From: Beroe forskalii
Taxonomy: Eukaryota; Ctenophora; Nuda; Beroida; Beroidae
Assembly (NCBI GenBank): GCA_011033025.1
Contig: WFMF01000098.1
Span: forward strand, 186,001-250,000
Length of the DNA: 64,000 nt
Direction of reading: 5' to 3'
The notes below the pieces were generated by a model, which ran no database searches, was not told where the DNA came from, and saw only the letters and a program-made list of their open reading frames with translations. This document shows, piece after piece, positions 33,489 through 58,412 of the stretch (position 1 is its first letter; each line of letters opens with the position of its first letter). The translations under genes and the position numbers were made by a program.

Positions 33489-33672
33489 TACGCTTAGAGC
33501 ATGGCTGGGAATGCGCTAATAAAAATTATTGCACGAGGCGAAGACGAGTGCAATAATTTGTATTGTCGCACGAGGAGCAGGCCGAGTGCGACAATACCAA
33601 ATTATTGCACGAGGCGAAGCCGAGTGCAATAATTTTATTAGCGTCATGACCATTTGCCATGCTCTTAGTGTA
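33489..33672. repeat. Multi-hairpin (cloverleaf-like) element 1
   Basis: Three consecutive hairpins, each with a perfect 12-bp stem: AAATTATTGCAC (33523/33548), GTATTGTCGCAC (33560/33586) and AAATTATTGCAC (33599/33624). Their loops are near-identical: GAGGCGAAGACGA, GAGGAGCAGGCCGA and GAGGCGAAGCCGA. They sit inside an outer stem (GAGCATGGC...CGCTAATAAAA against TTTTATTAGCG...GCCATGCTC). The whole could fold as a cruciform with three arms. It has no coding capacity and no clear target duplication. Confidence 0.85.
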
Positions 33673-33786
33673 TTAGCCAATGTGAGGAGTGCAATATTAC
33701 TTATTATTGCACGCCTACAAGTACCCTCAAAATTGGCTAATATGTATTAATTTTATTTCAGTTTAATGTGAATAAAGACCTCAGTA

Positions 33787-35614
33787 CGGGTATATGCCCC
33801 ACAAAATAACACGCCCCACAAAATACATAATTTTCTTTTTCATCATATAAGTAAATAAATATGATCTTTCATACTGTTGAAGTTAATAACACATAAACTA
33901 GTATCTTATGTGAAGATTTCCTGATAAAAATCATGGCTTTAGGTGAATTTTTTTCATTCCAATTTTTCCTTGAAAGTGAAAATGATGGTGATTAGGAAAA
34001 TTGATTTGCATATATCCTCATTATTTTTGAGAAATTTGTTATAAATCGAGTAGTTGAATACTTCTCCATTAATTTCAAATTGATATAAGAAATTCCATGA
34101 TCAAATTTCGAAAAGTATAGGAATTATTCAAAAAAATTGACTTAGCCCCACAAAATAACATGGAATGCCCCACAAAATAACATAGCTAAATTCAAGGTTT
34201 TCATGAACTTCAACAAGTCTACAATGCTTATTTGACTTCATTATATGATGAATAGTATTCAAGAAGCATGTAATTCACAATGAGACATAAAGTTTATGAA
34301 GAGAGTGTAAAAAGCCAATATTTACCATGCCCCACAAAATAACACTATATTTCAAATATGCCCCACAAAATATATCTAAGTTCCATACAAAGTTGTGGTG
34401 AAAGCAAATACAGTAAAATAAAGATGAATCATGTAAGGACCACTAATTGAAGGTAGTTTACATATCAAAAAAGCAGAAAATTGTTTGCTATGAGCATCAA
34501 TATTCTTGAATTCTTGCAGATTTATCTACAGGTGACTGATAAATTTCATCAAAATCAGTGCAGTGTTAAGGTTTGAATTTGAACTTTGAAGATCAAATCA
34601 ATGTGATTGAATGTGACTCTTTCACTACTACTAAAGTACTAATAAACTTAACAATTATTTGATTCTCATGATCATCTGGTTTCATGACCTACTGTACTGT
34701 TTTCACATGTAATGATTGCAAATTATGATAGAGGTTCCTGGCCAAAAATACCACAAAATGACATAAGCAATAGCAGAATAACCACCCAACCTGGTTTAAA
34801 ATGTGTATGCAAATAAAACGTCTAATTCATGTCAATTTATAGACTGGACATAATAGCCTGAACTTTAATCAAAGGACAAAAATGCATCTGAGCAATATCC
34901 AATAAGCTAATATACATAGATGCCCCCAACACATCATAATTTTTCAGTATAAAACCCTTAAACCCTCGAACAATGATTTTCTATCTTCATAAACTTGTCA
35001 GACCAACATCTAAAGTAGTCTTGGGTGTTCGACTATACAAAATTTGAAGCTTATAAGCTATTGCCCCACAAAATATATAACCCAAAAAAATTAATTTTAG
35101 GAAAACTCTGAGTTGGCATAGTGCATATGACTTGCAGTTTACGTTATTTGAGCTAATGAAGGACAAATTTATAAAAGAGAAATTTCATCTAAATCATAAC
35201 TTCAAAAAAAAAATATAACGGTTTTCCTTGATTTGAGTGTCATTTTGTGGGGCTCTTACAGCTTTCGTGGATCATGAAATCAACAGTAAAGATGATGGAA
35301 TCCCAAATTGTTTAGTTTGGAGATTTGAAAAGTATCAAAATAGTATAATCGAACGAAATTTTTGTTACGGTTAATGTTTTTGAAACAATTTCATATTTTT
35401 CATGTTGTATATTTTGTGGGTCATGGCAAAATGAAGGGTGTTTTCACAGAAAATTTTCGTCCACTAAAAGGCTTAATTTTTGTTAAAAATCGGCGTGGAA
35501 AACTTTTCTAAGCCTTTTGCTACTATAAGGAATCCTTATTAGTCACATCCTACTCAATTTCTCTGGACAAGAGGTATTTGAAAAATCGTATATATTTTGT
35601 GGGTCAAATACCCG
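33787..35614. mobile_element. 1.83 kb TA-flanked non-autonomous element
   Basis: The left end CGGGTATATGCCCCACAAAA and the right end TTTTGTGGGTCAAATACCCG are inverted repeats with two mismatches over about 22 bases. TA lies on each side (33785-33786 and 35615-35616). The subterminal word CCCCACAAAATA recurs internally in direct orientation (about 33814, 34144, 34169, 34329, 34363 and 35064) and inverted at about 35240 and 35410. There is no open frame of transposase size. A TA duplication fits the Tc1/mariner group, but TIR evidence alone does not fix the superfamily. Confidence 0.75.
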
Positions 35615-35616
35615 TA

Positions 35617-36645
35617 TAGCCATAGTATTCATTAATTACGAAGGTAATAAATCGCAGTTTTTACTACTTATGTTATGTGGCCAGATCGTTTGCAAAAGCT
35701 CTACTATAAGATTATAGGTTACACGATATTCGCCATCGCAGATCCGTAGATTTCCAATACACACACATTCTGTAAATAGCAAAGTTTTTCCTTGATGAAC
35801 CCACCGTTTAGAAAACCATCGTTGTGAAATTGGAAAACGGACTTTTGCGGAAAATCAGGATTTTTTTCGGAGATAAACTTATAAATTACTGCTACTATCA
35901 TTGTCCGTTTGGGCATAATTTTCATCAAATTGGGCGCGCTGCTTCATGGCGGTAAGTTGTATCGCAATCCACTGTTGTCATGAGTGGACACCATTATGGC
36001 GGGGATTTATATTTTCTACACCCTACAGCTGGACCAAACAAACTGATTAATCGTCTAATCCTCTACCAACGTGCATGATGATTCTGATTGCATTATATCT
36101 GGTGATCAAAAACGTATAAATCTGGTCACATGAATCAACACATCTTTGGACGTTTCGTCCGTCATTCAGTCTAACAAACATTTTCCGACTTGATATATCA
36201 CCATCAAAGATAAAACTGCATGAATATGCTGCATGAGAAAGTCGAGCTGAGCGCTATGTCGGATCATTATCGGTGTTATTGGGTATACCCATCATAGCAA
36301 AACTTAGGTACATACGACCCGATACGACTGCATAATACTTCAGTTTTTAGAAACTGGAAGAAATTATTGTCACAGTGACTTACATTTCATCGCACATAAT
36401 TCAAAGCATGGTCACGTACAAATTCTTGATTTGCAAATATACGTCATAAAATTAAACTCTAGAAATTGGGGTTTTTATGCCCGAAATCCAAATGGAGTAT
36501 AAAGTTAGATTGAATTTCTGGAGCGTTCTTAAGGTAAGAGGGTAAGTCCCACTTAAAGGTCCCACTTAACGCAAATTTGGTGAATATGGGCCTTAGCCTA
36601 GGATTCTCGAAAATTTAAGAAACCTAGCCTAGAATTTCGGAAAAA
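35617..36645. other. No recognisable gene
   Basis: Non-coding. Near 36590-36650 the words CCTTAGCCTAGGATT and TTAAGAAACCTAGCC form part of a repeat that continues on the far side of the LINE (about 44635-44690 and 45245-45325). Confidence 0.4.
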
Positions 36646-36657
36646 TTAAGAAACTTC

Positions 36658-36962
36658 TTCTTCTTTTGCGGTCACCGGTTTCTAGTCACAGCACTGGAGC
36701 TGTGTCTCTGTCGCCGGGTCCCCAGAGGCAAACTCCTGCTAGCTCGACCCCAAGGACTCCCTGTATATGACAATAAACATACTTACCTATATCATAGAAC
36801 TGCAACTAGACACGGGAGTCTAATGTCAGTTGCTACCTGGAGCGCTGCAAACTCGGAGAGCAGACAGGGACCAACGCTCAGGCCAACCCCATTCGTTCTG
36901 TATTCCCCGGTTGTGTGTGACCTGAGTGGGATGTCAGAACTTTCCATGATAACCTGGGGAGG
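36658..36962 (-). other. 3' untranslated region and tail of the LINE
   Basis: Non-coding, between the ORF2 stop and the target duplication. On the minus strand it ends in a short run of AAG units (TTCTTCTTCTTTT on the plus strand at 36655-36667), the probable 3' tail used in priming. Confidence 0.6.
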
Positions 36963-37670
36963 TTAACGCTGTTCCTTAAACAGGTTGTCCCTTTCGAAAC
37001 GACCCGTTTGTTCCACGTATTTAATCAGAGATTCCGGTTTAATTTTCATTATTTCTTCCATGGTTAGTACTGGTTTCCCAAGTATTTGTAGCCTGAGAGT
37101 CATGAAGGCTACCCACTCGCATAGGAAGTGTTCAGACGTCTCTTCTTCCACCGAACATTCCGCACATATAGGCGTCGTGTAGTTGTTTGCCCTGTATTGG
37201 AAGTAGTTAAGAGGGCTGTGTCCGGTAAATAACCAAGTAAGCCATCTAGTGTGGCTTCCTGAAAATTTTGGATTTCTATAACGGTGATTCAGAAGATAGT
37301 GCGAAAGGGGGGTTTTTCCTTTATCGCTAATAACTGCCTCTGAGTAAGCCTTAATATGTGAGTTCATCATGTGGGTCTTCAGTTCTTTGATGATGAACTC
37401 TCCTGTAAGAGGGAGAAAAGGTTCTGGGCCTATCGGGAGGGCCGAGGACCCAGATCTGGCTAACTCGTCTGCCCTCTCGTTCCCTTGTACTCCCTCGTGA
37501 CCAGGGATCCAGTGTAGTTCTACGATATGTGTCAAGCTGAGGTGGTTCAGCTGTCTTATGATTTCCAGTACCTGTCTGGAAATAACCTGTGGGCTTTTAA
37601 TTGCTCTCAGAGCTGCTTGAGAATCCGAAAAGAAGATGGGCTGTGGACGTTGCCGCCAACCCAAACACAT
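36963..37670 (-). pseudogene. LINE ORF2, C-terminal part: RNase H and CCHC motif
   Basis: The second half of the RNase H domain continues here in a frame different from the RT segment. FFSDSQAALRAI carries a catalytic Asp, and HWIPGHEGVQGNERADELA carries the His/Asn/Asp cluster. Near the C-terminus, CAECSVEEETSEHFLC is the CCHC motif (C-x2-C-x8-H-x2-C) seen after RNase H in related elements. A single-base frameshift near 37670 separates this part from the RT: upstream reads ...YQCELFAIHMG and this frame resumes at CLGWRQRPQP. RNase H would remove the element RNA during cDNA synthesis. Neighbouring codons show no further stop, so the break may be recent or a sequencing error. Confidence 0.85.
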
Positions 37671-39735
37671 CCCATGTGAATTGCAAACAATTCACATTGG
37701 TAAACCGTGGCTAAAGTGCCAAGGCTGAAATGTCGTCCATGTTGTTCTACACCGTTCCTGAAGACGGAGAACCCTGCTCCAGTGAAGGAAGATTGTTTCG
37801 AGCCGTCGGTGAAGATCTGCCAAGCTGAAGAGGGGAGTTCGTTTGGTTTCACTTTCGCCGCTGGTCTCTCCTGAATGAGAGTTTTGAACCTGCGATCTAG
37901 AACGAGTTCCTTTGGTATAATGTCCGTTAGTTGGCACTGGCTGAAGGATAGATTATTCAGTGTGCTCTCAATGGGATAAGCATGGGAATTACATTTATTT
38001 CCATGCCCTAAAACGTAATTGGAGTTCCAGGTACCATGACGCTTAAGTCTAATGGCCGATGTGATGGCCAATTCCCTGAGTTTCAAGGAGATTGGTTGAA
38101 TACCTGCCATAATTTCTAGATTTGCCGTGGGTGTGCTCTTCAGTCCTCTGGAGATCATGAGAGCCGCATGCCGTTGAATAGACTCTAATCTCTTCTTCAG
38201 GTAGAGTTTCTGCTCCGCTGAGTGGTGCCATACCACTGCCGAATACATAACCGAGGGAATAACTACTTGGTTATAAATCCATCTTACTCCTTTTGGAGAG
38301 ATACCCCAAAGCTTGCCTACTGCCTTATTGCAGGCATGTAGCTGTCCTAGTGCTGAGTCACATTTCTTCATAATGTGAGGACCCCAGCTAAGTTTGCTGT
38401 CGAGAGTTACTCCGAGATACACGGTACTGTTGACCACTGGTACATCGTGACCTGCCACTGAAAGGGGTGGAATAATGTTATCTCTTTTGTTCGTAAAGAG
38501 AATAGCCTTTGATTTAGCCGCACTGATCTTAAGACCTTTGCTAACGCACCATTTATTGATGTTTACCAGGTGTTGCTGCGCTATGTTTCTGACTGTAGAT
38601 TTGCAGATACCCCTGATGAGAATCACCAGGTCATCTGCAAAAGCCTGGATAAAGCTGGACTGAAGACCTAAAGAGGAGAGAAAGGTGTTAAGGGTGAGGT
38701 TCCACAGGAGGGGGGAGAGAACTCCCCCCTGTGGGCTGCCCCTCGAAGCTTTCCTCCTGATCGAAGTACCACAGTAGGATAGAGTGATAAACCTGTTACT
38801 AACCATGTAGAATATCCACTGGCTGATAGTAGGGGGGATATCAGCTTCCTCAAGAGCTTCTTTGATTGCCGTAAACGTTACAGCATCAAACGCCTGTTCT
38901 ATATCTAGAAATACTCCGAGTGAGTAACTACCTGTAGCCATGGCATCCTCTATTCTGCGGGTTAGAATATGGATTGCTGATTCCGTGGATTTGCCTTTCT
39001 TAAAACCGTGCTGGTTTTTAGTTAGCTTAGCCGGGATATTGGCGTCCTGTTCGAGATACCAAAGTATCAGACGTTCTAGAAGCTTTTGGAAGCTAGAAGT
39101 AAGCGAAATTATTCTAAACGCACGTGGGTTAGTGTAATCCGGTTTAGCCGGTTTAGGTAGTACACATCCGATAGTATCATGCCAAGAGTCTGGAGTCAAA
39201 CCCAGAGATAGCGAGTGGTGAAAAACCATGCGCACTGGATCCTTAATCCATTTCCATGCTTTGGTAATCATTTCGTTCCTTATTTTGTCTGGTCCGGGAG
39301 CTTTGTTCTTAGCCAGTTGTTGTACAGCCTTGTCCACCCTATGGGGTGCCAGCAGCTTCAGGATGAGATCAATGTCTCCTCCTGTATAATCATGGTTAGT
39401 TGCTTGCTGGGCATCACTCGGTATTAGAATGTCAGCTAGCACCTGAAGAGTTTCCTGAGGGGAATTAGTAAGTTCTCCTGTGGATTTCCTGAGGCTGTTA
39501 AGATTTCCTTGTTTTGTATTTCCCAGGTTTACCAGTTTGTTAACCCTGGAAAGGGTACTCGAGTCTTTGATATTACTGCAGAAGGTTTTCCATCCTTTGC
39601 GTTTCGTATCTTTCATAAGCTTGGAATACAGTCTGTTAGCTGAGCGGTAGAGTTCCCAGTCTGCATTGTTCCTGGAGCAGTTAGCTAAACGTCGAAGAGC
39701 CTTGGCTGATTGCTTAGCCCTGGTGAGCTCCGCTG
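37607..39735 (-). pseudogene. LINE ORF2, reverse transcriptase and start of RNase H
   Basis: The frame is open from the insertion point (39735) to about 37670. RT motifs appear in order: RAFRIISLTSSFQKLLERL, NQHGFKKGKSTESAI, motif A GVFLDIEQAFDAV, motif B SRGSPQGGVLSPLLWNL and the catalytic motif C QAFADDLVIL. Downstream are the LYLGVTLDSKLSW-type block (VYLGVTLDSKLSWGPHI) and RHAALMISRGLKSTPTANLE, then RNase H begins with IFTDGSK and a catalytic Glu in QCELFAIHMG. All RT catalytic Asp residues are present. The N-terminal side of the linker (WELYRSANRLYSKL) is in frame up to the transposon junction. Confidence 0.9.
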
Positions 39736-39959
39736 CTTACCTTCCAAAAGTGGGTAGCAGGAGTAGCACTGCTACCGAGGGGATTTTTTTCAAAACCGAG
39801 GGGATTTTCAAGTCAAGATGCACGCATGCGCAGCATGCGTGCCGTGCCGAAATATTGAAAAAAGATTTGATAAAAATTGTATCTATTTGCAAGTAATGTG
39901 TTCTAATAACAACGTAGATCAATTTTAACTGTAAAGATGCATATGTAAGGGGAATACAA

Positions 39960-40395
39960 ACATACAAAAAGACGTGAGGGGAAGTCATCATAAGGTGAGG
40001 GGAAGCAGGTAGTGAAGCAAGGGGAAGTGAAGTAGAGGGGGAAGATGGTGTGATGGTCAGATGGGCTGAGGGGAAATTAGGTGAGGGGACGTTAACTGAG
40101 TGAAAGTAAAGTGAGGGGAAGTAAGGGTAATTATTGTTATTATTAAGGTAAGGGGAGGTCTGGTGAGGGGAAGTATGGTGAAGGGAATTAATTAATTAAG
40201 GTGAGAGGAAGTATGGTTAGGGGAATTAACTAATTAAGGTGACGGGAAGTTTGGTGAGGGGAAATATGGTGAGGGGAATAAACTAATTAAGGTGAGGGGA
40301 AGTATGGTGAGGGGAAGTATGGTGAGGGGAATTATGGTGATTCGTGATGAGATGTAAGGTGAGGGGAAGTGAAGCGAGGGAAAAGCGATATGCCA
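39960..40395. repeat. GTGAGGGGAAGTATG-type tandem repeats in the transposon
   Basis: Short units GTGAGGGGAAGTATG, with variants GTGAGGGGAATTA and AACTAATTAAG, are repeated irregularly through this interval. Confidence 0.85.
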
Positions 40396-40534
40396 CACAA
40401 GAGGAAAATACTGACCATTTTAAACTTTTGCAATAGTTTAATGATAGATTATCAATAGAAAACGCCTTTGGCAAGAAAAGGATTGGTAATCAAATTAAAC
40501 ATTACCGGATTGATCTCAAAGGCAGACTTAAGGA

Positions 40535-41075
40535 GGCAAAAAACCTTAAAAATTTTCGCCTGCGGCGGGCTGTTGTGATTCAGTAATCACACAATCTCAG
40601 AAGTAATACTTTCACAATTTTTGCCTACGGCTGGCTGTTTGAATCACATTATCCATTAATAAACAAATTGATCTTAGAGGCAGATTCACGCACAAACCCT
40701 AAAAATTTTCGCCTGCGGCGAGCTGTTGTGATCCAATTATGCCACTTAATTGATCCTAGACACCATCTCGGGTGTAAAACTTTCACAATTTTTGCCTACG
40801 GCTGACTGTTTTAATCACATAATACATTAAATGGATTGATGTAAGAGGCAGATTCAGGTGCAAAACCTTAAAAATTTTCGCCTGCGGCGGGCTGCACTGA
40901 TAGAATTATGCCACTTAATTGATCCCAGACACAATCTCAGGTGTAAAACTTTCACAATTTTTGCCTATGGCTGGCTGTTTTAATCACATAATATATTAAC
41001 TAAATTGATCTTAGAGGCGGATTCATGTGCAAAACCTTGAAAATTTTCGCCTGCGGCGGGCTGTACTTAATTGCC
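40535..41075. repeat. Tandem repeats of about 160-170 bp in the transposon
   Basis: AAAATTTTCGCCTGCGGCGG occurs at about 40549, 40705, 40870 and 41038. A related half-unit, TTTCACAATTTTTGCCTACGG, alternates with it. Each unit also has GATCTTAGAGGCAGATTCA or similar. Confidence 0.85.
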
Positions 41076-41164
41076 ACTTAATTGGCTCTTGGCTCTGAGC
41101 AAGCTTGAAACCGAGGGGATTTTGAAATCTGCTACCGAGGGGATTTTTCTTTTTGGAAGGTAAG

Positions 41165-42063
41165 CTCCGCTGTCCACCAGGGCGTGGTGGAGTGAAAAGT
41201 ACCCCTAACAATGGGGCAGGCTGCGTTGAAGCAGGTGCGGAGGGCTTTGGAGATGAAGTTCTGTCTATCGTTGAGATCGTCTGCAGAGGAGACTGGCTTG
41301 AACCAGAAGGGATGACTGGTGAAGTGAGACTCCACGAGCTGTTGGTAGAGTGACCAATCACATCTAGCTGTCGATCTGGAAGCGAAGCTGGACTTGGCGT
41401 CGATGGCAATGTTGAAGTTGATTGCCTCATGATCAGAGAGTGAACTACCTTGATTCACTCTCCAATCCCTGACAAGGTTAAGGCCGAGAGGGTTAGCGAC
41501 GGTTAGGTCAATAACTGAGTGGCCCAACTTTCCGACGAAGGTTGGAGTGTTACCTGAATTGCAGATAGCGAGGTTGTTCCCGTTGACTGCTTGAAGTAAT
41601 TCTCTTCCCCTTGCGTTGCATGCCGTGTTTCCCCACGCAACATGGTGCGCGTTCGAATCCGTTCCTGCTATCAGAGGTAGCCGTTCTTTTTCAGCAAAGG
41701 TGCTGATCCGAGTTAAAAGACCTGAGGGTACATCAATGTTAATATCCATATAAAACGAGGCCAGAAGAATAGTGACGTCGTCTCGAAGCTTAATAACTCT
41801 GAGTACTAAACAGTCCGCCGAGCTAAAGCTAGCTAGAACCATTGTGGCTCTAGCCAGGTCCTTTGGTAAAAGAATACCCACCCTTGCTTTCTGTTTCGAA
41901 AAAGGCACAAATTGCTTGTGCGATTTCGGAACATTACAAATGGAGTTGTTCCTGGTTAGAGGTTCCTGGAGTAAACAAATATGATTAGATTTGAGTTAGC
42001 CGCCGTAATGCGTTTGCCAAGATTGAGTTGGACAACTGGTGTCGAGAACTTAGCACGAGTCAT
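41165..42063 (-). pseudogene. LINE ORF2, N-terminal endonuclease
   Basis: An ATG at 42063 opens a frame (..STPVVQLNLGKRITAANSNL) that shifts near 41985 into the frame carrying HICLLQEPL, which holds the catalytic Glu of the APE-type endonuclease. Further motifs are LIAGTDSNAHHVAWG (Asp/Asn/His) and SLSDHEAINF (Ser-Asp-His). It ends at HSTTPWWTAEL, a linker motif common between EN and RT in this group, just before the transposon insertion. The endonuclease would nick the target DNA to prime reverse transcription. The ORF2 ATG is 63 bases after the ORF1 stop. Confidence 0.85.
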
Positions 42064-42126
42064 AGTAACAAGAAAAATTTAACAACCGCGGTTCCAAGAA
42101 GGAAAACTAATACTGAACCTGATGCC

Positions 42127-43548
42127 CTATTCTGGGCGATTCAGTCCTTCAGATCTGTCGGACCCAGAGTCAGAGACTCCGGAGTCGGAGACGTCTGCTG
42201 GGTACCCCCCGGAAGCGAGCCTTCTTCTCCCCACTTTAGCAGCTCTCTCCTCTCTAGGACTGCTTGTTCTGGAAGGAGCAGGCGAGTCCCCCGTGTTACC
42301 TCTGGTAGCAACGTGCACTACCGTGTTGTTCAGTCCGGGACTATTGGGTACCACTAAAGAGCAGCTCTCCAACAGCTCCTGCTCCTGTTTCGGAGTCAGA
42401 TCCTTCTCAAACACCTTCAACTCTGCAGGGGTTTGCAGCAGTTTCGCCTCTTCAGAATCCTCCTGTAGGGCTCTACGGGCTTCAGAGCCCGTAACGTGAC
42501 GTTCCCGATCATTGGCGGACACCTGGGCTGTCGCCCTGGCCTCCTTCTTCTTCTTCTCCAGCTCTTTGGCGAGCTCGTTCACGTCTTGATCCGGCGCTAT
42601 GTAACCTTCAATCCCTCTAACTGGAGGGTGTTGCCACTGGATGAGGAATAATCCTATGTAGGAAATCCAGTCCCGCTGTTTCAACCACTCGAACGCGTCC
42701 TCGTCCACCTCGAGTATCACCCGAAAACTGGATTCGGGACCTGCCGGTTGCGATGGTTTCGTAGGTACCCTGACCTGCGATTCCGAGATACCCCCGAAAG
42801 TTCCGGCGGCGAAATGCGCCGCCAGTTCCGGTATCACGATGCTGGCTGCACCTGGTAGGGTGCAGTAGATCGCGTTTCCTTTCGGCCACTCCCCGGGCAG
42901 GAAAGCCTCGAAATTTCCGAGCTTGTTGATTTCCTGCTTGTAGAAGTTGCAGGACAACTCGTTAGCGTACACCACCATGTGGTGTGGGGTTAGCCGTGTA
43001 CCTGCGTGGGAAATCGCGTCTCCCGCCAAACCGTTCCTGTGGGCTGTTAGTATAGCCGTTCCTAGTTTGAACTGGAGTGTCCATTGGTCCGTGCGGGTAG
43101 GGGGAGCTCTGTCCGCCATAAACACCCTAATATCCACCTGCTGTGTACTCTGAGTGGGACCACTGGCCCCTTGAGCACCCGAGTTCTCCGCTGTGATTTT
43201 CGCATATGTCATGCGAAATCTCTCCTGCTTCTCCCTGATGGTGTTGGCATCAGCTCCTTTCGCCAGCTTGGCTGGTTTGTGGAGCGGGACTCTAGTTTTA
43301 CTAGAGCTCGCACCATCCTGAGCCCTGTTAGTAAACCCTTTTCTGAGTTTGGCCTCCCGGGTTTCTCTCCGTTCCTTTAAGTTCCCCCCTTCAGCATTGC
43401 TCTTCCTCTTCTTCGCTGCTGTCCGCTTTTTTTCCGCCTCCTCCTCGGCTCTCCTCTCTGCCCGCCGCTTCTTCGCCTCCTCGCTCTTCTTCTTCCTCTC
43501 CTCACCCGCCACCTCAAACGCTGGGGAGCTGTCTCTCGAACTAGTCAT
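42127..43548 (-). CDS. LINE ORF1 protein (DUF4780-like), intact
   Basis: An intact 473-codon frame. Residues about 16-90 are very rich in Lys, Glu and Arg (ERKKKSEEAKKRRAERR), likely a charged helical or nucleic-acid-binding region. Residues about 145-345 form a folded-looking region (WTLQFKLGTAILTAHRNGL; VILEVDEDAFEWLKQRDW) that resembles the DUF4780 domain of arthropod-type retroelement proteins; that assignment is from memory of the pattern. The tail is Ser/Asp-rich (SDSGVSDSGSDRSEG). It lies 63 bases upstream of ORF2. ORF1 proteins of this class package the element RNA. It is the only undamaged frame of this element. The ATG at 43548 is the first Met of the open frame. Confidence 0.8.
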   Translation of the reverse strand: MTSSRDSSPAFEVAGEERKKKSEEAKKRRAERRAEEEAEKKRTAAKKRKSNAEGGNLKERRETREAKLRKGFTNRAQDGASSSKTRVPLHKPAKLAKGADANTIREKQERFRMTYAKITAENSGAQGASGPTQSTQQVDIRVFMADRAPPTRTDQWTLQFKLGTAILTAHRNGLAGDAISHAGTRLTPHHMVVYANELSCNFYKQEINKLGNFEAFLPGEWPKGNAIYCTLPGAASIVIPELAAHFAAGTFGGISESQVRVPTKPSQPAGPESSFRVILEVDEDAFEWLKQRDWISYIGLFLIQWQHPPVRGIEGYIAPDQDVNELAKELEKKKKEARATAQVSANDRERHVTGSEARRALQEDSEEAKLLQTPAELKVFEKDLTPKQEQELLESCSLVVPNSPGLNNTVVHVATRGNTGDSPAPSRTSSPREERAAKVGRRRLASGGYPADVSDSGVSDSGSDRSEGLNRPE

Positions 43549-44622
43549 TCTAGCGGAGGACCCGGTGTGAGTTGAATTACGAGAAAGCTACACGCATTGA
43601 ATGAGGAAAGCCGAATTTAGGGTCGTGAATTTGGGAAGCCGAGTCAGTTAAAGGCTGGATATTTTGATTAAACTAAAATAATCCAATCCTGAAACTCCGT
43701 CAGGTAGGCCGTCTTGATCCAGGTTCAATCCAGGTTGAGAGCCGTGCGCGTTCCCAATGCGCGTCGAAAATTGTCTGCTAGATATTGCTTGCAGATTCTA
43801 CGGCTGGCTCCGCGCATTCCTGACATGACCGCAAACTCTGTGACCGGGCGTTTCTTTGTATCGTGTGTCCCACACCGCGTGTATCAGCACCCGTTTCATC
43901 GATCCCTGTGGATGTTAACCCCTAGGGTCATTGTCCGGGGATTCCTGCGGATGTTAGCCCTGATGGATGTTAGCCACTGCAAGGTTAATCTACTTGGTAG
44001 ATTGCTTCGAGTTAAGTAGGAGTCCTTTCTGTTCGTGTGAGCCGGGAGAGATTAGGCGGGGTTGAGGCCGCTCCTAACCGTGTTTCTCTTTAAATAGAGA
44101 AGCATATGGGTGTTTTCCCGCGGATGTTAGTCCTGTGGATGATAATCCTGGATGTAAGGCCTGTGGATGTTAGACCTGCGGATGTTAGTCCTGCGGATGT
44201 TAGTCCTGTGGATATTAGTCCTGTGGATGTTAGTCCTGTGGATGTTAGACCTGTGGGTGTTAGTCCTGCGGATGTTAGTCCTGTGGATGTTAGTCCTACG
44301 TTTGTTAGTCCTGAGAATGTAAGTCCTACGTGATAGCCCTGCTAAGGAGCCAAAAAGGGGCCTAAGGAGGCAACTACGGAGAGAGAAACCGAGTACTAGC
44401 CGAGTGGAAGCCAGAAGGGTGGCCGAAGTAACCCTTAGGAGCTGGATAGAGTTGAGAGTAGACTCGATGCGGCTCCGCTCTGGGAATGTTACCTGTGGAT
44501 GTTAGTAGTTTTCCGAGTTTTTGGGGTGGCTAGTCCCGCCTTCACATTATAAAATAATGTACCTCCTGTTAGAGCCATCCGGCCCGCACGACAGGGACGT
44601 TCGGTGAGGATTTCGCGGGCCT
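43549..44622 (-). promoter_or_regulatory. 5' leader of the LINE with 15-bp tandem repeats
   Basis: The leader has no long frame in the sense direction. From about 44110 to 44335 a unit of 15 bases (GTCCTGTGGATGTTA on the plus strand) repeats about 14 times; isolated copies lie at 43905-43975 and 44485-44505. Because 15 is a multiple of three, an antisense frame stays open (44106-44333, DVSPVDVSP...), which is an artefact. Repeats in LINE leaders often serve as internal promoter or enhancer elements; that role is inferred here. Confidence 0.6.
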
Positions 44623-44634
44623 TTAAGAAACTTC

Positions 44635-48205: not shown

Positions 48206-48211
48206 AGTGTA

Positions 48212-50564: not shown

Positions 50565-50705
50565 AGGTCCTGCATAAGCCTGTGGCACTCTTGCATACTG
50601 TTGTGAGCAATAAGGAGAGTCCCATCGTCAGCAAACTTGAAACAGGTGAGCCACTTTTTCACATCCTCAGGTAATTTTTTCCTAAAATCCCCAAATCTCT
50701 TTCCT
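50565..50705 (-). pseudogene. LINE A: reverse transcriptase catalytic fragment
   Basis: The minus strand reads GDFRKKLPEDVKKWLTCFKF, then ADDGTLLIAHNSMQECHRLM: the FADD catalytic motif followed by the helix before the KTE block. It belongs to the frame at 48212-49422. A stop lies just upstream of GDFRKK, and sequence beyond about 50705 shows no further RT motif, so LINE A is itself truncated or decayed at its 5' side. Confidence 0.75.
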
Positions 50706-51356
50706 CATAAATTATAGTTCTCGTAAGGGATGTAACACCTTGTAGTGAAGAAGTGTTAAATGCCACGTTCTTAATCAATGACCACTTAGACCTACTAACT
50801 TACCACAAACCTGTTTAATGAATGTAGGGGAAAGCATGTATGCCCAGTGTCAAAAAATTACCTTACTTTAGTGAAGGAATTTAGAAATTAAAAAGGGATG
50901 GTTTTTTGAATGATTACGCTATATTTAATTGTAACTTATAAAACTACTGTGAACTTGATTATGGGAAGGGGTAAGAAGTGACGAAAAATTGATTATGCAA
51001 CATGTGAACGATCCCTTATTATTCAAGACAAGAATTTTTAATTCTGAAATGAATGAAATTGATTTCAAGTTCGTTGATTGCTTTCAGTGCAATGAAGCCC
51101 TCTGACTCTAGTGGTATCCCATCCATTTTTACTTGCAAGGCTCCGAACAGGTTCGCGACGGTTTTAAAAACCCGAGGCAGGTTCAGTTTAAATCTATGTT
51201 TAGAGGGACAGGTCAAAGACAAGATTTGACGGGATACCGCTATCGTCAGGAGATCGAGCAACCATACTCTCAGTAATCAGTAATCAGTATTATACAATAC
51301 GGTTGCAACATGTTTAGCTTTTTGTTTTTGTTCTATCGTTATATCTTATAATATAA
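50706..51356. other. No recognisable gene
   Basis: AT-rich non-coding sequence. An 80-codon minus frame (51261-51019) has no supporting feature. Confidence 0.4.
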
Positions 51357-52965
51357 CTAGCAGGCCCGTTGGGCCTGCTAGAATGATATATAAATGGATA
51401 TATAGCTCACTCGGCGGCGCTTCGCGCCACCTCGTTCGCAAATTTTGAAAAAAGTACGGATTCAACCATAGGTAGCAATCCAATTATTAACTTAAACGAA
51501 ATATTAAATTTTATGAAGGAGCAGAGTGAAAAGTAGTTCGGTTAATCTCAGTTGTGCTAAACCATGTGAGTTTTGTTCCGTTTTGATTGCAAGATGATTT
51601 CAATTCTGACAACTGATTTTCATACTGACATTTTGCTTTATTCACATTGATTTTGGCCAGGAACTGTCTCCGTAATCTGATACACCCATATTCGACCCGA
51701 TTAAATTGTACACTTTTGTAAACCTTAAATTGCTCTTAATAGCGGTCTATTTCTAAACTACAATTACCACTGTTATCACGGGCTCAGCATTAAATATCAA
51801 CCAACCTCTGCCACAGGTTTATGAAAACCATCTATCTGCATTATCCTCCGTTATTCAAGTTATGTCCTTTCTCCATCTTGAGATCTTAAATTTGAAGTAA
51901 GGAAGCGTCAAAATTTTTCAAAAACTACAGCACAGCATTTAACAGTAGTAGCGTATCAGAAAGCACTCGCATAGAACTGATCATAATCTGCACGTGCAAA
52001 AATTGGTTTCCATAGCAACGGCACCTCTTTTCTCCCGTTTGCATTCGTTTCTCTTGATATTTTCTTGGCAAGCTCAAATTTAAACTGTGCGCCCGCACAA
52101 ACAGACAAAATTCACGTGCCATCTCCAAATTATATATAAGATTTGGAGATGGCACGTGAATTATGTCTGTCTGTGCGGGCGCACAGTTTGAATTTGAGCT
52201 TGCCAAGAAAATATCAACTTATCAAGAGAAACGAAAGGGGAAAATGTGCTTATTGGTGCCGTTGTCATGGTCACTGGAAACTGCACGTGCATGTTGTGAT
52301 CGGTTGTATGCGAGTGCTTTCTGATACGTTGCTAACTGCTGCGTCGTGGTTTTTGTTAATTTTACGTTTTCTACATTTAAGATTGAGATCTAAAGATGGT
52401 GAATGGGTATGGCTGGCATCGGGGAGGCTATAGGCGATAGAATTCCCTTTATGAATCAGTGGCAATGGTCGGTCAATTTATTAAATCGATGATTAAAATG
52501 GTTTCAACTAAATTATGTTAATCGAGCAATTATTGAAGGAAATTTAAGATTAACCAAGGCAAAATCAAATTGATCAAATTGGGCATGTCATATGTTATTG
52601 CGAATTTGGGAATCTTGGCGTAAATCAATGCGCAATGCAACGTTCAGTATGCATTTACGGTTCTCAGATTGCAGTTAAACTAACTTCGTCGTACAATTGC
52701 AATTAGACAAAACTGGCCTTCATATATGGGACAGCATTACTGAAAGTGACAAACGGATTATTGTAAATTTTGCTCCTTCATAAACTTTTTCATATTTCAA
52801 AATTTGCAGCTGGCGTAAATGTATTATTTGTTTTCATTGTTCAATGCGGTAAGAATAGAAAAATTGTCTTGATAACTTGAATTGCAATTTTGGAATTCTG
52901 CGAGGGAGGCAGGGCGTAGCCCCGCCGAGTGAGCTACGTTTTAGCAGGCCCAACGGGCCTGCTAG
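51357..52965. mobile_element. 1.6 kb palindromic element with CTAG plus hairpin at both ends
   Basis: The left end is CTAG-CAGGCCC-GTT-GGGCCTG, the right end the complement (CAGGCCC-AAC-GGGCCTG-CTAG). An A precedes the left CTAG and a T follows the right one. Inside both ends lies AGCTCACTCGGC or its complement, with the CCGAG/CGAGG hairpin motif. The two arms are diverged inverted copies of one sequence of about 770 bases that meet at about 52133 (GCACGTGCCATCTCC against GGAGATGGCACGTG). The match is strong near the centre (51930-52340) and weaker outwards. A possible AATATA duplication is low in complexity. Helitron-like 3' ends in inverted orientation are one reading, an ordinary foldback transposon the other. 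Confidence 0.75.
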
Positions 52966-52989
52966 TAATATATCTTACTTATAATTTCG

Positions 52990-53240
52990 CAGATTCTGTT
53001 TTTTTTACGTCACGCCCCATGGCAACGCGCGCGCAATGGGGTAAATTGCACGTGCAGATTAATTGCGCGCGCGTTCATTTCTGTTCAATGCTGTTTTGAT
53101 TTCGAAGCTTCATAACTTTTGATGTGGTCGGAATTTTTTGATGCGGTAAAAAGTATTTAGTTGATTTGAAATTTGCGAACGAGGTGCTGCGTAGCAGCGC
53201 CGAGTGAGCTGTGTATTTGCAGGCCCAACGGGCCTGCTAG
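52990..53240 (+). mobile_element. Short copy of the 51.4 kb family arm
   Basis: Contains TTGCACGTGCAGATTAATTG and ends in AACGAGGTGCTGCGTAGCAG, CGCCGAGTGAGCTG and CAGGCCCAACGGGCCTGCTAG, followed by T. It therefore carries the same terminal module as the palindrome before it. A hairpin AACGCGCGCGCAA/TTGCGCGCGCGTT brackets the GCACGTGC word. It is one arm only. Confidence 0.7.
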
Positions 53241-53681
53241 TAAGCTTATAATTTAGAGTACCTAACTATGCACTTTTGTAGAACAGTGCACTTATTTCAT
53301 TATCAAACTGATCTACTGTTAACAATTTGATTGACTTAGCTAGGCTCAATCTTGAAGCTATCAAAACCGTCTTTTGATCGACCAATTGAGCTTGAATTTA
53401 AAAATTATTTCTTGCAATTTTTCGAAATTGAATCGTATGAGCTACGGGCCTGCTACGGGCCTGCTAGTAAGCTTATAATTTAGAGTACCTAACTATGCAC
53501 TTTTGTAGAACAGTGCACTTATTTCATTATCAAACTGATCTACTGTTAACAATTTGATTGACTTAGCTAGGCTCAATCTTGAAGCTATCAAAACCGTCTT
53601 TTGATCGACCAATTGAGCTTGAATTTAAAAATTATTTCTTGCAATTTTTCGAAATTGAATCGTATGAGCTACGAGATTGGG
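53241..53681. repeat. Tandem duplication with a 227-bp period
   Basis: TAAGCTTATAATTTAGAGTA starts at 53241 and again at 53468. By eye the following 205-215 bases are identical, up to GAATCGTATGAGCTACG. The unit boundary carries GGGCCTGCTACGGGCCTGCTAG, pieces of the neighbouring element's terminal hairpin. Identity this high means a recent duplication or an assembly artefact. Confidence 0.85.
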
Positions 53682-54467
53682 TTTTATTTCAATCATACTT
53701 ATATCTGTCTGAACTTATTCTTAGTTCAAGGAATAGTTGTACTCCCGCCCTGGCAAGGGCGGTGCACCCCTTGCTAAAACTTGTCTACAGCAAACCCATG
53801 TAACGAGTAAAAACTATGAAATTTCAACTGGTCTTTATGAAATCATATTGGGAAACTTTGTTTTTGAATCTTGATACTTGAAAATGTGGTGCCAAAGAAT
53901 TTTGAGTTGATGCTAAAAGGATTTCACCTGTTGAATCTAATAAGTCTCGCTTATCAAATTTTATTTAATTTCTGATAACAAGGCCTTGTGAACTTGTTAC
54001 TAGTAATATAAGGGGATCTCCTATTGTAACACCTTTGAGGTTTTGCAACTGATGTTTTATCATATAGATGATATAGTATAATGGTATTATACATTTATTT
54101 GAGTTTAACTAAATTTTTCCGTGGAATGACTGATGGCTCAGGACGCCACGGTTGTTACGATGTCTGTCTTTGTGAAAGACACGAGGGTTAATTGCCAGCT
54201 GAATGATCTTTGTTGCGGTTTAAAACATCAAATTTCAAACAATATATTGTACCACCACCATTGTACCATATAGTGTTACAAATAATATATAGAAGTAATA
54301 CTTTTTGAAAGCTCGATTTAATAATAACGTTAAATTACTAGTTAATTGAGATTATGTACTTAATCTAAATGATCATGAATGATTCAAATATGTTTACTAT
54401 ATATATATTATTATCATTTATCAGTGATTCAGATTAATGAACGCCCTTGTGTATAATGACTGTATAT
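53682..54467. other. No recognisable gene
   Basis: AT-rich non-coding sequence. A small GC hairpin CCGCCCT-GGCA-AGGGCGG lies at about 53745-53762. Confidence 0.4.
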
Positions 54468-54650
54468 ATACATATACCCGCAGCCTCTAGGGCTGAATTT
54501 CATATCGCACGCGCATGCGCGTGCGATATGAAAATATATCCCTCGAGGGCGCTAGCCCGAGTGGGATATATATCGTATAGCACGCAGGGCTCGAAGAGCC
54601 CGAGTGCTATACGAAATTCAGCCCATGAGGCGAGGAGTATATGGTATATA
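54468..54650. repeat. Multi-hairpin (cloverleaf-like) element 2
   Basis: An outer stem GGGCTGAATTT (54490) / AAATTCAGCCC (54614), extended by CCTCTA/ATGAGG-type pairing outwards, encloses three hairpins. These are a perfect 36-base palindrome at 54498-54533 (TTTCATATCGCACGCGCA and its complement), ATATATCCC/GGGATATAT with loop TCGAGGGCGCTAGCCCGAGT, and TCGTATAGCAC/GTGCTATACGA with an inner GGGCTC-GAA-GAGCCC. It has the same plan as the element at 33489-33672, with unrelated stems. Confidence 0.85.
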
Positions 54651-54875
54651 TCCACTCGCGTGAGCTTTTTGGGAGAATGGCATATCTAAGATGAAAAAAG
54701 TCGAATGTTCAAGTAAATCCTCGAAGATTTGAACACACAGGAAGGTTTTGCAACAATAATATTGAGTTTTTTCTCTAATTAACAAAAATTTAATTTTTCA
54801 CCAATGCAATACAAACACGATTAAGCACCGTTAGTATTTGATCGAAGGGGTTGGCAAAGCTTATGTAGAAGTTAT

Positions 54876-54905
54876 GAGCCCGAGGGCCCGAAGGGCCCGA
54901 GGGCG
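54876..54905. repeat. Short GGGCCCGA palindromic cluster
   Basis: GAGCCCGAGGGCCCGAAGGG followed by CCCGAGGGCG reads GCCCGAGGGC-CCGAAG-GGCCCGAGGGC. It is like the loop region of the multi-hairpin elements but without long stems. Confidence 0.6.
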
Positions 54906-56364
54906 AAAATTTTAAAGGCGAATCGAATCAAAGCATGAATTAATCTCAAAGGTCTTGCAATCGAAGGATTATTGGCTAAAATGTGGTGAGATGTTGCAAA
55001 TGAAACTTAAAACACTAGCAATCTTGGATAAGCAAACAATAATTGGAAAAACAAACGAAGGAGAAAACGAATTAATTTGGTAGCATGTCACTTTGTGAAA
55101 CGCATCAGTTGACATTTACAACTATAGTCTTATAGTAAACAGAACTTGAAAAGAGATACAAAACGATGAAAGGAAATGGGTTAAAATGAGCGTATTTACA
55201 TTTGGTGAAACTCTGCAGCACTGTTATAATAGACAAATGAGAATGACGTAATTACCATGGTTGAATATGGTAAGTCAATAGAATAAAGTGTCCCTCAAAA
55301 TTTTTCTCACGGGAAGTTGCACAATGTATCAGAGTCTCGCGGTGATTAGGCGGCATTTATTTTACATCGTATCCGCTGTGTGTGAGAAAAGTAATGCACC
55401 ATTGTTACTAATGATAATGACGTATTGCTCACTCACCTCTTGCTATTTCCGAAGAATGTGTAACCATGACAACATGGCAATGCAATTAATGATCAACACA
55501 AATGCAAATTCCTAACTTTATTTCATGATATTGTGTTTCATTCTCTCGTTTTTGATTTTGTATCTTTTTACTTCTCTTTCTTGGAATGATTGCTTTTACA
55601 GAATTTTACAGAATTGCTGCTATCACTGCTATCATTGCTATCACTGCTATCACTGCAGTTCACTGTTTTCTCTGCTATTTGACTCGACTTTTGTCTACTG
55701 TTGGCCACATATTTTGCTGAATATTTATTAATTCTATTTCGAAGTTGAACTACTTCTCATAATTTCATGATTCAGTAAGCTGCTGAACAATGATAAATGT
55801 CAATTTCAGTGTTTTGACTCTTAACTTTCCATCGCCTCTATGTTTTTTGTCGATAATCAACTCCACAAAAATCCTTCTATTTGCCAGTTTTTTGCCTCAT
55901 GATCGATATTTTGCTGCTAAAATTGTTGTTGTGGACACTTTCAATGATCTCAGCCAGTTTAGCACCAAAAAATATTTTCTTCCAAGAGGCGGGCTATATT
56001 GCAACCGACGCAGAACTGCTCTCGCGGGCCGGGCTATATCCGCTGGGTATATCAAATTTAGCGTGCAAATATTTTACCGGGCCGCGCGCGCCCGCTACCT
56101 AAAATGTCTTCAAAAAGCGCACGCGAGTGGATATAAGTATATATCATACTCAGTAGCTGCGCTATCATTGCTTTAATTTGGGGGAAAACGGCGATATAGA
56201 TTGAAAAAAAGACATTTTGATGTTGTTTTTATTTGTAATTTTGTCAATTTCTATGTATTTCAAAAGGATTATTAATGAAGGTTGATTGATCTCACTATAT
56301 AATAAGGACAAGTTGAATACTGAATAGTCTAAGGAATAGTTTAGAAGGCGGTTTCTCGTCAAAG
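54906..56364. other. No recognisable gene
   Basis: AT-rich sequence. TATCACTGCTATCATTGC-type units form a small tandem at 55617-55657. Around 55985-56140 is a GC-rich patch (GGGCCGGGCTATATCC, GGGCCGCGCGCGCCCG). Its end, read in reverse (ATATCCACTCGCGTGCGCTT), matches ATATCCACTCGCGTGAGCTT at 54648, so it is probably an inverted relative of multi-hairpin element 2. The 128-codon frame 55790-56176 is taken as chance. Confidence 0.4.
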
Positions 56365-56475
56365 TGGTGACCGTATACCGCAACTTACACGGTCGAGGAT
56401 AAGCCGTTGGATAAGCCGTTGTAAGTTGGATAATAGACGAGGCGTGCCAAGTCTATTATCGAAGGTATACTGTCA
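56365..56475. repeat. Multi-hairpin element 3 (two hairpins in an outer stem)
   Basis: The outer stem GTATACC / GGTATAC (56373 and 56464) encloses two hairpins. The first is CAACTTACACGG paired, with one bulge, to CCGTTGTAAGTTG. The second is GATAATAGAC-GAGGCGTGCCAA-GTCTATTATC, a perfect 10-bp stem. The second loop begins GAGGCG like those of element 1. ACCGCAACTTACA recurs at 56670. Confidence 0.75.
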
Positions 56476-57909
56476 TAGAGCTGAGATCATGGAACCGGAT
56501 TATACCCCCGACTGAACTGCTAAACAATATAGTATATCTTTAGATATCTTTCCGCACGGGTCAGACAACCCAACTACCCGAGTCTGGAATAAACTTTCTG
56601 ATAGTTTTTCTCTGCTCCTTTATGAAATCAAGTTTGATCTAACTTTGGTTTGTTCTATTAAATTGAGGTACCGCAACTTACAGATCGCAAGGGAGGGGTA
56701 TAATTCCTCTTTGCAGCTATTGGAATCTAATACGTTAAATACTTCTCAATGGAAAATAAAGAAACTATGATTAAAACATGGACCTATTTATATATTGCAA
56801 TACCTTAAAAATCTTTTTGACTTTCCATCGTTTGGAATAGCGGTAATTCTTCAATTCTGCCGGTATTGTACCATATAAATCTATCAAATTACAAAACGCA
56901 GCTCTATCTACTCATACAGCTTTATCAATTCTCTATAAATGAATTTTAGTATTTTAAGTCTGATTTGCAATGTGAAATTATGCTTGTATTATCACGAAGC
57001 GTTGATTAGAACGAACTTCGAAATGTCTTGTTCCCTGGGGATCTAGAAACTGTTCGTTTTCGTATGAAAATGTTGATTACTTGCATGGACTTTGGTCTTG
57101 ATATAATATATTATTGGGTAAATTATTGGTTCCAATTAGATTTAAGCAATTGTACTATATAGGTATCGGAATTTGTTAGAATGCTCTGCAATGCGTAATA
57201 GCTGAGAATGTGACATAAAATTTTGTCCAGTGAAAGTACCATCCCTTCTCAAAATTTAGTATGCTGGCAGATTTCGTCATCTGGAAAGCTGGTTTCTTGT
57301 CCGTTTCATTCAGGTGAAAAGTTATTCTAGAGTATACTGTATCTAGCTTGCTTTGTTTATTGAAATAATCAAAGAATGAAAGCCAAAATCTGAGGACTTG
57401 GTAATTTAAAATAATTTCGTTGCAATATCAATGAAATTTGAATTTGTCATAGAGAAAATCCAGTCCCAAACATTCATATCAAATTTTGAAATCCCCGCAC
57501 CTTTTCGACGCGTGAACTTTATCGCCCAGCTATTACGGTAATTGCAGAGTACTGCTACATCACAGCTGCTTGAATGGCAGGAATGGGGTCTATTGAATGT
57601 CGGTGTGGTCTATCAATGTGTAATCTCAAAACAGGCAGCTTTCAAAACCCAAAGGAGATTGGCAAGATTCCATACAGTGAGAGACCAGCAAATCTCAAAA
57701 CCGATTTATATAAAACATGATATGAATGAAATTTGTGGGATTTTAAGTATGACTTAGAGAGTTAAAAACACGCTTATGCATTTATAGTTGTTATCTGTGA
57801 ATTTGGATAAGTATATATTTTAATCTTTTGAAACGTTGCGCCTGTCTCTGTTTATCACAGCTGCTCTGTATTGGGTGTTATTATCTTTAATATAAAGTAA
57901 AGTCACATG
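56476..57909. other. No recognisable gene
   Basis: AT-rich non-coding sequence with short chance frames only (for example 57542-57757). Confidence 0.4.
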
Positions 57910-58412
57910 TGAATAATATTTGTTTGTTCTTGCCAAGAAATTATTAGGAGAAGCGAAAGGAAAAGGGAAAAAGGAGGCTTCGTTGAGCCTATGGAAATCA
58001 ATTTTTCCGCACGTGCAGATTATAATCAGCTCTATGCGAGTGCTTTCTATTGCGCTATTACTGTTAAATGAGCTGTGGTATAGTTTTTGAAAATTTTACG
58101 TTTCCTTATCTTCAAATTCAAGATCTCAAGATGGACATAACTCGAATAACGGAGGATATTCCAGATCATAGATTGTTTCAAAAAAAACTTGTGATAGAGG
58201 TCGGCCGAAAATCAATGCTCAGTCGGTCAATCAAAACTGAACAAAACGCACGAAGTTCTATTTTCCACTCTGCTCCTTCATAAAATTCTTTGATGCGTTG
58301 AAGAGTATCCAATCAATTTAAATGGCAATGGCAGTGTTCAAAATTTGCGAACGAGGTGCTGCGTAGCAGCGCCGAGTGAGCTGTCTCTTTGCAGGCCCAA
58401 CGGGCCTGCTCA
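57910..58412 (+). mobile_element. Single-arm copy of the 51.4 kb palindromic family
   Basis: It runs from GTTCTTGCCAAGAAATTATT through CACGTGCAGATTATAATCAG, CTCTATGCGAGTGCTTTCT and CAAGATCTCAAGATGGACAT to AACGAGGTGCTGCGTAGCAG and CAGGCCCAACGGGCCTGCT. It is closest to the left arm of 51357-52965. The end reads GCCTGCT-CAAT rather than CTAG-T, so the last bases are altered here. A single arm with the shared end shows that the palindrome is not the only mobile form. Confidence 0.75.

Follow-up and report, generated by a model that had tools for sequence, protein, structure and literature searches.

Why do hairpins of unrelated stem sequence share one loop plan? This question is raised by a stretch of 64,000 nucleotides from the genome of the ctenophore Beroe forskalii (assembly GCA_011033025.1, 216 Mb in 1134 contigs; contig WFMF01000098.1, positions 186,001 to 250,000, or C1112:186001-250000), which is called the window below. 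An earlier note had described hairpins in it that differ in their stems but keep the plan CGAGG...CCGAG. The conserved thing is a structure and not the sequence of the loop: a tandem G·A mismatch followed by a GNA or GNNA tip. The reading that is modestly favoured here is that the signature is a structural motif for the stable folding of one DNA strand, and that the cloverleaf elements bearing it in the window are non-autonomous relatives of Crypton-type transposons, which carry a tyrosine recombinase with the DUF3504 domain.

The pattern CGAGGN{4,18}CCGAG occurs 12 times in the window, far above the shuffled sequence (mean 0.25, largest count 2 in 100 shuffles). Seven of the matches are hairpins that had been named before (33571, 33610, 51410 on the minus strand, 53180, 54544, 54881 and 58352), and the claim of one loop plan with differing stems is thus real. 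The other five matches are something else. Three belong to one short (GGCCGA)n repeat at 30365-30404 on the minus strand, which mimics the pattern, and two, at 39776 and 41112, are stemless (pairing at 1-2 of the 8 outer positions and at none of the 3 inner ones) and lie in or beside the open frames of a long interspersed nuclear element (LINE). The hairpin proposed at 33534 is a real arm, namely arm 1 of the element called F1 below, but it misses the exact pattern, with ACGAG for CCGAG. The one at 52901 also misses it, with 19 bases between the two halves, and its best fold is unlike that of its relatives. Two cases had been labelled partial. For 54881, the label was wrong: positions 54878-54904 (plus strand) form the complete hairpin GCCC-GA-GGGCCC-GAA-GGGCCC-GA-GGGC, and the same hairpin is present at another locus of the genome (L156). 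For 56437, the label suits what is seen by eye, a putative decayed arm at 56430-56459 (plus strand) that reads ATAATAGAC-GA-GG-CGTG-CC-AA-GTCTATTAT.

When a single strand is read, two facing CGAG strings form the pairs C-G, G·A, A·G and G-C within an otherwise paired stem, and beyond the tandem G·A the stem runs on until it is capped by C-GNA-G or C-GNNA-G. Across the genome, CGAGGCGAAGCCGAG is present in 1082 copies and CGAGGTGCTGCGTAGCAGCGCCGAG in 881, with none of either in the reversed control. The stems around the core differ and still pair. In 45 distinct pairs of 12-nt flanks of the CGAGGCGAAGCCGAG core from the genome itself, positions 1-8 are paired in 70% of cells, compared with 54% for shuffled partners (maximum 61% of 1000). 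Because the flanks pair with their own partners above this level, the stems can be said to differ while the core stays. The same comparison at 13 distinct core sites of prokaryotes and viruses gave 41% against 44% shuffled, where positions 1-2 were already fixed as paired by the search pattern. The idea of a feature that is kept while the stems are free to change is therefore supported, with two amendments: the feature is a structural rule without a fixed loop sequence, and the inner stems vary and covary as well.

A set of 33 distinct arms was collected from 114 loci of the same genome (L001-L114) and the window. The tandem G·A has the setting YGAR in all 33, and a C-G pair closes the tip in 29. 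The tips are GNA in 23 arms, GNNA in 5 and other in 5. The set contains ten inner stems, and the outer stems vary by family. Fifteen other types of 2x2 mismatch, searched in the same way, yielded 0-2 arms each. Since the loci were mostly chosen by the core and many arms are related, the genome-wide pattern counts weigh more. With the mismatch positions left open (CNNGGCGAAGCCNNG), there are 1184 matches (control 8), and 1082 of them are GA/GA. Opening the three-base loop (CGAGGCNNNGCCGAG) gives 1512 matches (control 1), with GNA in 88 of the 100 matches listed, and opening the four-base loop (CGAGGCNNNNGCCGAG) gives 1605 (control 7), the outer stems of the listed four-base-loop matches being unchecked for pairing. 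Among the 100 listed for CGAGGCNNNNGCCGAG, 44 are a CGAG minisatellite, and the other 56 contain 53 GNNA loops, 3 of which are GNRA. The minisatellite has the same (GGCCGA)n unit as the short repeat in the window. Finally, when an inner G-C pair is excluded (CGAGHNGNANDCGAG), 580 matches remain (control 93). The first inner position pairs in 82 and both inner positions pair in 76 of the 100 matches listed, which come from the first contigs only and represent few families; 72 of the 76 have a C-G or A-T pair outside a C-G. The motif, its covariation and the loop rule are observations with hardly any room for doubt.

The rule is one of DNA. Tandem sheared G·A pairs in the YGAR setting are about as stable in DNA as Watson-Crick pairs. 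DNA mini-hairpins whose loop is GNA or GNNA and which have two or more G-C pairs are described in the available text of PMC4686876 as unusually stable, with a melting temperature of 78 °C and resistance to nucleases. These d(GCGAAGC)-type hairpins follow the same tip rule as found here; there they are oligonucleotides and parts of aptamers, whereas here the rule is a feature of transposon ends (PMC4686876). In nearest-neighbour folding, the GA strand is favoured over its complement in 11 of the 12 regions, with an advantage of 0.7-6.1 kcal/mol. In the genome of this ctenophore, evolution would have arrived at a known optimum for DNA hairpins, not RNA hairpins, a natural case with more than 1000 covariation copies in one genome.

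The motif is carried by seven kinds of cloverleaf or long hairpin, labelled F1-F5, F7 and F8, and by one Helitron, F6, so that the cases do not collapse into one family of miniature inverted-repeat transposable elements (MITEs). When the window and five samples of 10 kb were scanned for hairpins, the motif proved not to be a property of ordinary hairpins there. That the cloverleaf and F6 sequences are mobile elements can be taken as nearly certain. F1 occupies positions 33487-33742 of the window (plus strand, 256 bp, TATACGC...GGCTAATA), with CAT to its left and TGTATTA to its right. Its exact 5'-end pattern is found 240 times in the genome and its 3'-end pattern 150 times. The cloverleaf part (33487-33670, plus strand) consists of an outer stem and three arms. 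Arm 1 (33523-33559) has the core CGAGGCGAAGACGAG, one base from the consensus; arm 2 (33560-33597) has the core CGAGGAGCAGGCCGAG; and arm 3 (33599-33635) reads AAATTATTGCAC-GA-GGC-GAA-GCC-GA-GTGCAATAATTT, all on the plus strand. The DNA fold of 33487-33750 has a z-score of -13.8, and owing to the likeness of arm 1 to arm 3, the optimal fold is a long nested hairpin and not the three-armed form. A 3' hairpin follows at 33671-33742 (plus strand, TATTAGCCAAT...ATTGGCTAATA), with the TAATA end. The second cloverleaf of the window, F5 (54490-54624, plus strand; fold of 54481-54670, z -13.2), has the outer stem GGGCTGAATTTC/GAAATTCAGCCC and three arms. Arm 2 (54534-54571, plus strand) has a tandem G·A and a GCTA loop, and arm 3 (54574-54612, plus strand) has a GAA loop and the mismatch variant GCAG/CGAG.

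The plan of an outer stem with three arms recurs elsewhere in the genome. In a copy of F3 (L003; z -13.4), tandem G·A and GAA are present in all three arms despite differing base pairs, and the outer stem has another tandem G·A. F7 (L112) and F8 (L114), for which no z was computed, follow the same plan, and F2 and F4 each form one long hairpin that contains tandem G·A. The ends of F1-F3 read TATA...TAATA. Relatives of the window's cloverleaf elements insert at AYAWTA^NNNNTTA and keep the TAATA end regardless of the 5' flank. Among 100 F1 5' ends listed, the 5' flank is A-Y-A-W before TA, its first base being limited to A or T by the pattern, and after TAATA, the bases T, T and A stand at positions 5, 6 and 7 of the 3' flank in 76, 70 and 74 of 100 listed. 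All 11 complete copies of F1 end in TAATA, and the left 5-mer is TAATA in 3 of them; this variation on the left speaks for TAATA as an end borne by the element and against a target duplication. Insertions of one element into another, with the empty site known, were found for F7 in F1, F1 in F1 (at the same site) and F8 in F1, the last being one site in two loci and perhaps a single event. F1 also occurs in pairs that lie tail to tail with exactly two bases between the TAATA ends (C192:900540-900579, C237:317525-317564 and C569:715094-715133).

Which enzyme could move such elements? A genome search for DUF3504, the domain of Crypton recombinases, gave seven matches, six of them above the cut-off. 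Candidate autonomous copies are L152 (3.4e-20; protein of 463 aa), L153 (469 aa) and L154 (open frame of 484 codons), which encode DUF3504 tyrosine recombinases, while the elements of the window are non-coding. R171, K204, H296, R299, H322 and Y331 are invariant in the three, and we take this R, K, H, R, H, Y series to be the catalytic set of a tyrosine recombinase. When the sequence of the L152 recombinase was compared with solved structures, there was no match at E 0.1. The flanks were examined at six of the seven matches, the seventh being C282, which is below the cut-off. At five of these six loci (L152, L153, L154, C347 or L156, and C493 or L157), arms lie in antisense orientation to the right of the gene. 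In the control, 94 kb of other DNA from the same genome searched with a laxer limit, five weaker arms were found and none had a GNA or GNNA tip.

A complete cloverleaf with an outer stem and three arms (z -16.8) lies upstream of the L152 gene, at L152:1-208. Its positions 31-206 match, in inverted orientation, 527-626 to the left of the gene (98.0%) and 3354-3441 to the right (96.6%); the outermost 30 bases, where the locus ends, are outside the comparison. Because both flanks of the gene match it inverted, the cloverleaf is what would remain if a gene-bearing element lost its inside, and because the joined flanks make a cloverleaf, the ends seem built to pair and to carry arms. It had been proposed that a replication mechanism builds new stems around a fixed core. 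The L152 cloverleaf resembles two ends of a longer element joined by an internal deletion, which is ordinary for non-autonomous elements. One family has the appearance of a gene-bearing locus that has undergone a deletion. Read in antisense order, C493 contains the internal part of F3-F2 (98.0% identical over 407 bp to L096), the gene, and a head-to-tail array of F2 units joined TAATA-TATAAC. The 1-kb F3-F2 element has this order too, except that at C493 the gene stands in the middle. Such an array is compatible with the circular intermediate of Cryptons. Head-to-tail F2 units joined in this way, beside a DUF3504 gene, are recorded at L159:1-607 (minus strand). In the case of F1, a piece of 139 bp with 83% identity lies left of the L154 gene. 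Near F5, the window stretches 54690-55101 and 55138-55468 (54690-55468, strand not assigned) are 82-85% identical to the right flank of the DUF3504 gene of C347, where their membership in the gene-bearing element is putative. Overall, a link of F2 and F3 to DUF3504 elements is likely, and that of F1 and F5 is reasonably probable.

Cryptons were described by Kojima and Jurka (2011, PMC3212892) as having short direct repeats at their termini but no inverted repeats there and no long direct repeats, as far as the available text goes. The elements discussed here share with them the recombinase gene of the same Pfam domain, DUF3504, and may share a short direct repeat at the termini (PMC3212892). 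Where Cryptons have terminal direct repeats of 4-6 bp, the nested F1, F7 and F8 cases show TAATA, TAATA and AATAA on both sides, and the left 5-mer varies in the 11 complete F1 copies. A word search of the available text of PMC3212892 found no mention of hairpin, palindrom or secondary structure, and neither tandem G·A nor ends of cloverleaf form are mentioned for Cryptons in the titles and abstract beginnings of the papers listed. To our knowledge, the question of how Crypton-type recombinases find their ends is not settled.

A precedent for recognition of a folded strand is found in bacterial integrons. At attC sites, a tyrosine recombinase uses one folded strand, structure outweighs sequence, and interruptions of the stem choose the strand, as stated in the consulted portion of PMC2727003. 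The similarity covers a structure that persists although its sequence is poorly conserved, interruptions of the stem by which the strands can be distinguished, and a tyrosine recombinase. The differences are that the interruptions are extrahelical bases there and tandem G·A here, and that the present sites are transposon ends whose folded strand is a putative substrate (PMC2727003). Along these lines, one DNA strand of an element would fold very stably by means of a tandem G·A, nearly always 5'-YGAR-3', and a C-(GNA/GNNA)-G tip, and this motif would be kept while the surrounding Watson-Crick pairs change. F1 and F5 would be moved by a recombinase of the DUF3504 kind, which may recognise the folded strand itself and thus use a single-strand route. 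Since the complementary strand has C·T where the GA strand has its tandem G·A, the mismatch could serve strand choice, with the stable G·A favoured over C·T in an attC-like manner. The identification of the folded single strand as the substrate of the recombinase is tentative. Somewhat more doubtful still is the wider proposal of a eukaryotic counterpart of integron recombination, in which Crypton-type ends would be joined as a folded strand, a sequence-free code of G·A and tip would select that strand, and Helitrons would have reached the same code. If the folded strand is indeed the substrate, single-strand recombination by tyrosine recombinases would extend from bacterial integrons to eukaryotic transposons. 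The ends of these elements have a legible and directly testable structure.

Several observations weigh against this account. Neither a circle nor a single strand nor any activity was seen. Because Helitrons carry the motif, it is not specific to tyrosine recombinases, and the hairpin code does not belong to any single enzyme. Only 30 of the 100 listed CGAGHNGNANDCGAG matches are distinct, 14 of which pair at the first position and 8 at both, so that few families carry the covariation signal. By eye, two tandem G·A sites are not YGAR: the extra one in the outer stem of F1 (GGGAATG/CATGACC) and one in the third arm of L152. In one of the 12 folded regions, the GA strand is slightly less stable than its complement. 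Among the DUF3504 loci whose flanks were examined, C490 (L155) has no arm. The five that have arms represent at most four kinds, as L152 and L153 are relatives (72%); the right-flank arms of C493 (L157) seemingly lie within a further nested insertion, and the arm of L156 is in a stretch whose membership in the gene-bearing element is putative. The 5' cloverleaf of F3 is absent from the examined C493 locus, and the F2 array there could represent separate, later insertions. For F1, the link to DUF3504 is the single 139-bp piece at 83%, and no whole DUF3504 element with F1- or F5-type termini has been delimited. Each kind of nested insertion is bordered by a 5-bp direct repeat (TAATA, TAATA and AATAA) that is present once at the empty site, and these repeats can be read either as a target duplication or as a shared Crypton-type recombination core. 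In addition, the flanks of 30 F1 copies are more alike than shuffled pairs (mean 4.67 compared with 3.78, 0 of 2000); this likeness is mild against native sites under strict controls (40 and 41 of 5000, with 20 and 87 sites) and clear against a loose native control (0 of 5000, 623 sites). Finally, described Cryptons have no terminal inverted repeats (PMC3212892, in the text available), whereas the flanks of the L152 gene pair in the outer stem of a cloverleaf and the ends carry arms; for this reason, the present elements would be a Crypton variant.

The earlier note had also named a Rep-type nuclease as a candidate, and this fits the cases at 51-58 kb, which belong to F6. That F6 is a non-autonomous Helitron is very nearly beyond question. 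The copy at 51357-52141 (minus strand, 785 bp) runs from TC to CTAG and has a GA hairpin with a GAA loop at 51405-51439 (minus strand). A unit of 268 bp at 52973-53240 (plus strand), TC...CTAG followed by T, contains the hairpin GC-GA-AC-GA-GGTGCTGC-GTA-GCAGCGCC-GA-GT-GA-GC with two tandem G·A sites (53175-53209, plus strand) and a terminal hairpin, GCAGGCCC-AAC-GGGCCTGC and then TAG (53219-53237, plus strand). The core at 52901-52929 (plus strand) lies near the end of a further copy and has a different best fold, and at 58347-58409 (plus strand), where GA and terminal hairpins of another copy are found, the best fold comprises the inner part and the terminal hairpin only. Hence, two window copies fold with two tandem G·A sites, and in two others the best fold lacks them. 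In the two copies whose fold shows both hairpins, the GA hairpin is 9-23 nt ahead of the terminal one. A comparison of the 51.4-kb copy with that at 53.2 kb shows changes on both sides of the inner stem and a tip that has gone from GAA to GTA. Among 47 starts of F6, 31 come directly after the CTAG of a preceding unit, and of the 15 starts without a preceding G, 13 are preceded by A. All 38 matched ends are followed by T, and some of them are shared by two starts. F6 resembles Helitrons in the TC start, the CTAG end, the 3' terminal hairpin, the A before and T after, and the head-to-tail arrays, and it differs by having another hairpin, which ends in a GNA tip and contains tandem G·A at one site or at two. 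Head-to-tail arrays of F6 with CTAG-TC junctions and no spacer are seen at L015, L029, L037 and other loci. A 219-bp tandem repeat with 100% identity (53228-53446 and 53455-53673) overlaps one Helitron end.

The strongest rival extends the Helitron case to everything. All of the elements would be rolling-circle (HUH) transposons, with F6 as the Helitron, the cloverleaves as another HUH group such as Replitrons, which have a Y1 HUH transposase, and the DUF3504 genes as chance neighbours. Besides the F6 ends and 20 Helitron_like_N matches in the genome, the head-to-tail arrays in both F2 and F6 suit this explanation, and so does the fixed TAATA 3' end with a variable AATA-like target on the left, which agrees with HUH chemistry. 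It is nevertheless unlikely. F1-F3 start with TATA and end with TAATA, not with TC and CTRR, and antisense arms accompany five of the six DUF3504 genes examined. Helitron genes were rejected as partners of the cloverleaves, as the four Helitron gene loci (37.5 kb) hold no arm; none of these four loci, as read, is linked to F6 ends either. A Rep of the circular Rep-encoding single-stranded (CRESS) DNA virus type was likewise rejected as the enzyme, the Viral_Rep search having given one spurious-looking match below the cut-off (E 0.07), with Replitron proteins outside the search. The cloverleaf elements thus fit a tyrosine recombinase better than a Rep-type nuclease.

Cut-and-paste MITEs are a less probable source, and we consider them improbable. 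In that case, the hairpins would be subterminal palindromes of elements mobilised by a DDE transposase, and the fold would at most be an extruded cruciform. The elements are indeed short and numerous, their outer stem functions as an inverted repeat, part of the copies have similar flanks, and the nested insertions leave a 5-bp direct repeat. However, the 3' end is TAATA in all 11 complete F1 copies while the left 5-mer equals it in 3, which is unlike a target duplication. Moreover, a palindrome acting in duplex DNA only has no reason to keep G·A, and among the 100 CNNGGCGAAGCCNNG matches listed, 92 are GA/GA and one is fully Watson-Crick.

An explanation without selection is very improbable. 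It supposes that single-stranded hairpins are corrected to perfect pairing and that sheared G·A escapes, the motif being a by-product. This would explain a motif common to unrelated elements, Helitrons included, but it leaves unexplained why G·A has a fixed position close to the tip in each of the three arms of one cloverleaf and why the tip is GNA or GNNA, and other hairpins in the 94 kb of other DNA have no such excess. Least probable of all is a fold that acts as RNA, as a structured non-coding RNA or a retroelement resembling a short interspersed nuclear element: the predicted folds are strong and tandem G·A pairs are common in RNA too, but the loops obey the DNA rule where RNA tips would be expected as GNRA (3 of the 53 listed GNNA), Rfam has no family at threshold within the window, no tail was seen, and the excess of the 5'-end over the 3'-end pattern of F1 (240 and 150, a rough comparison of different patterns) is opposite to 5' truncation, all of which disfavours the structural RNA that had been suggested.

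Two sources were tried and rejected for the signature. One was a bacterial or viral origin: the 19-mer core has 14 and 1 matches there, and taken together these sites show no extension of the stems; in 15 prokaryote and virus loci there are 2 arms in 87 kb, and L148 has an arm. The other was the repetitive hairpin elements of sponge mitochondria, which are also families of hairpin repeats but are mitochondrial, with no common loop rule or recombinase and no signature shared with the present elements in the text available of PMC2800124.

Other features of the window and assembly can be noted briefly. The LINE mentioned above lies at 37607-43587 (minus strand), with an endonuclease match at 41132-41995 and a reverse transcriptase match at 37607-39736 in separate open frames. 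A group of three open frames at 20931-23686 (plus strand), with 195, 220 and 408 codons, is possibly a decayed transposon gene; those of 220 and 408 codons have no Pfam match. Contig C1134 (13,339 bases; L150) has the only COX1 match of the assembly, with four in-frame TGA codons that are read as Trp under code 4, and it is probably mitochondrial.

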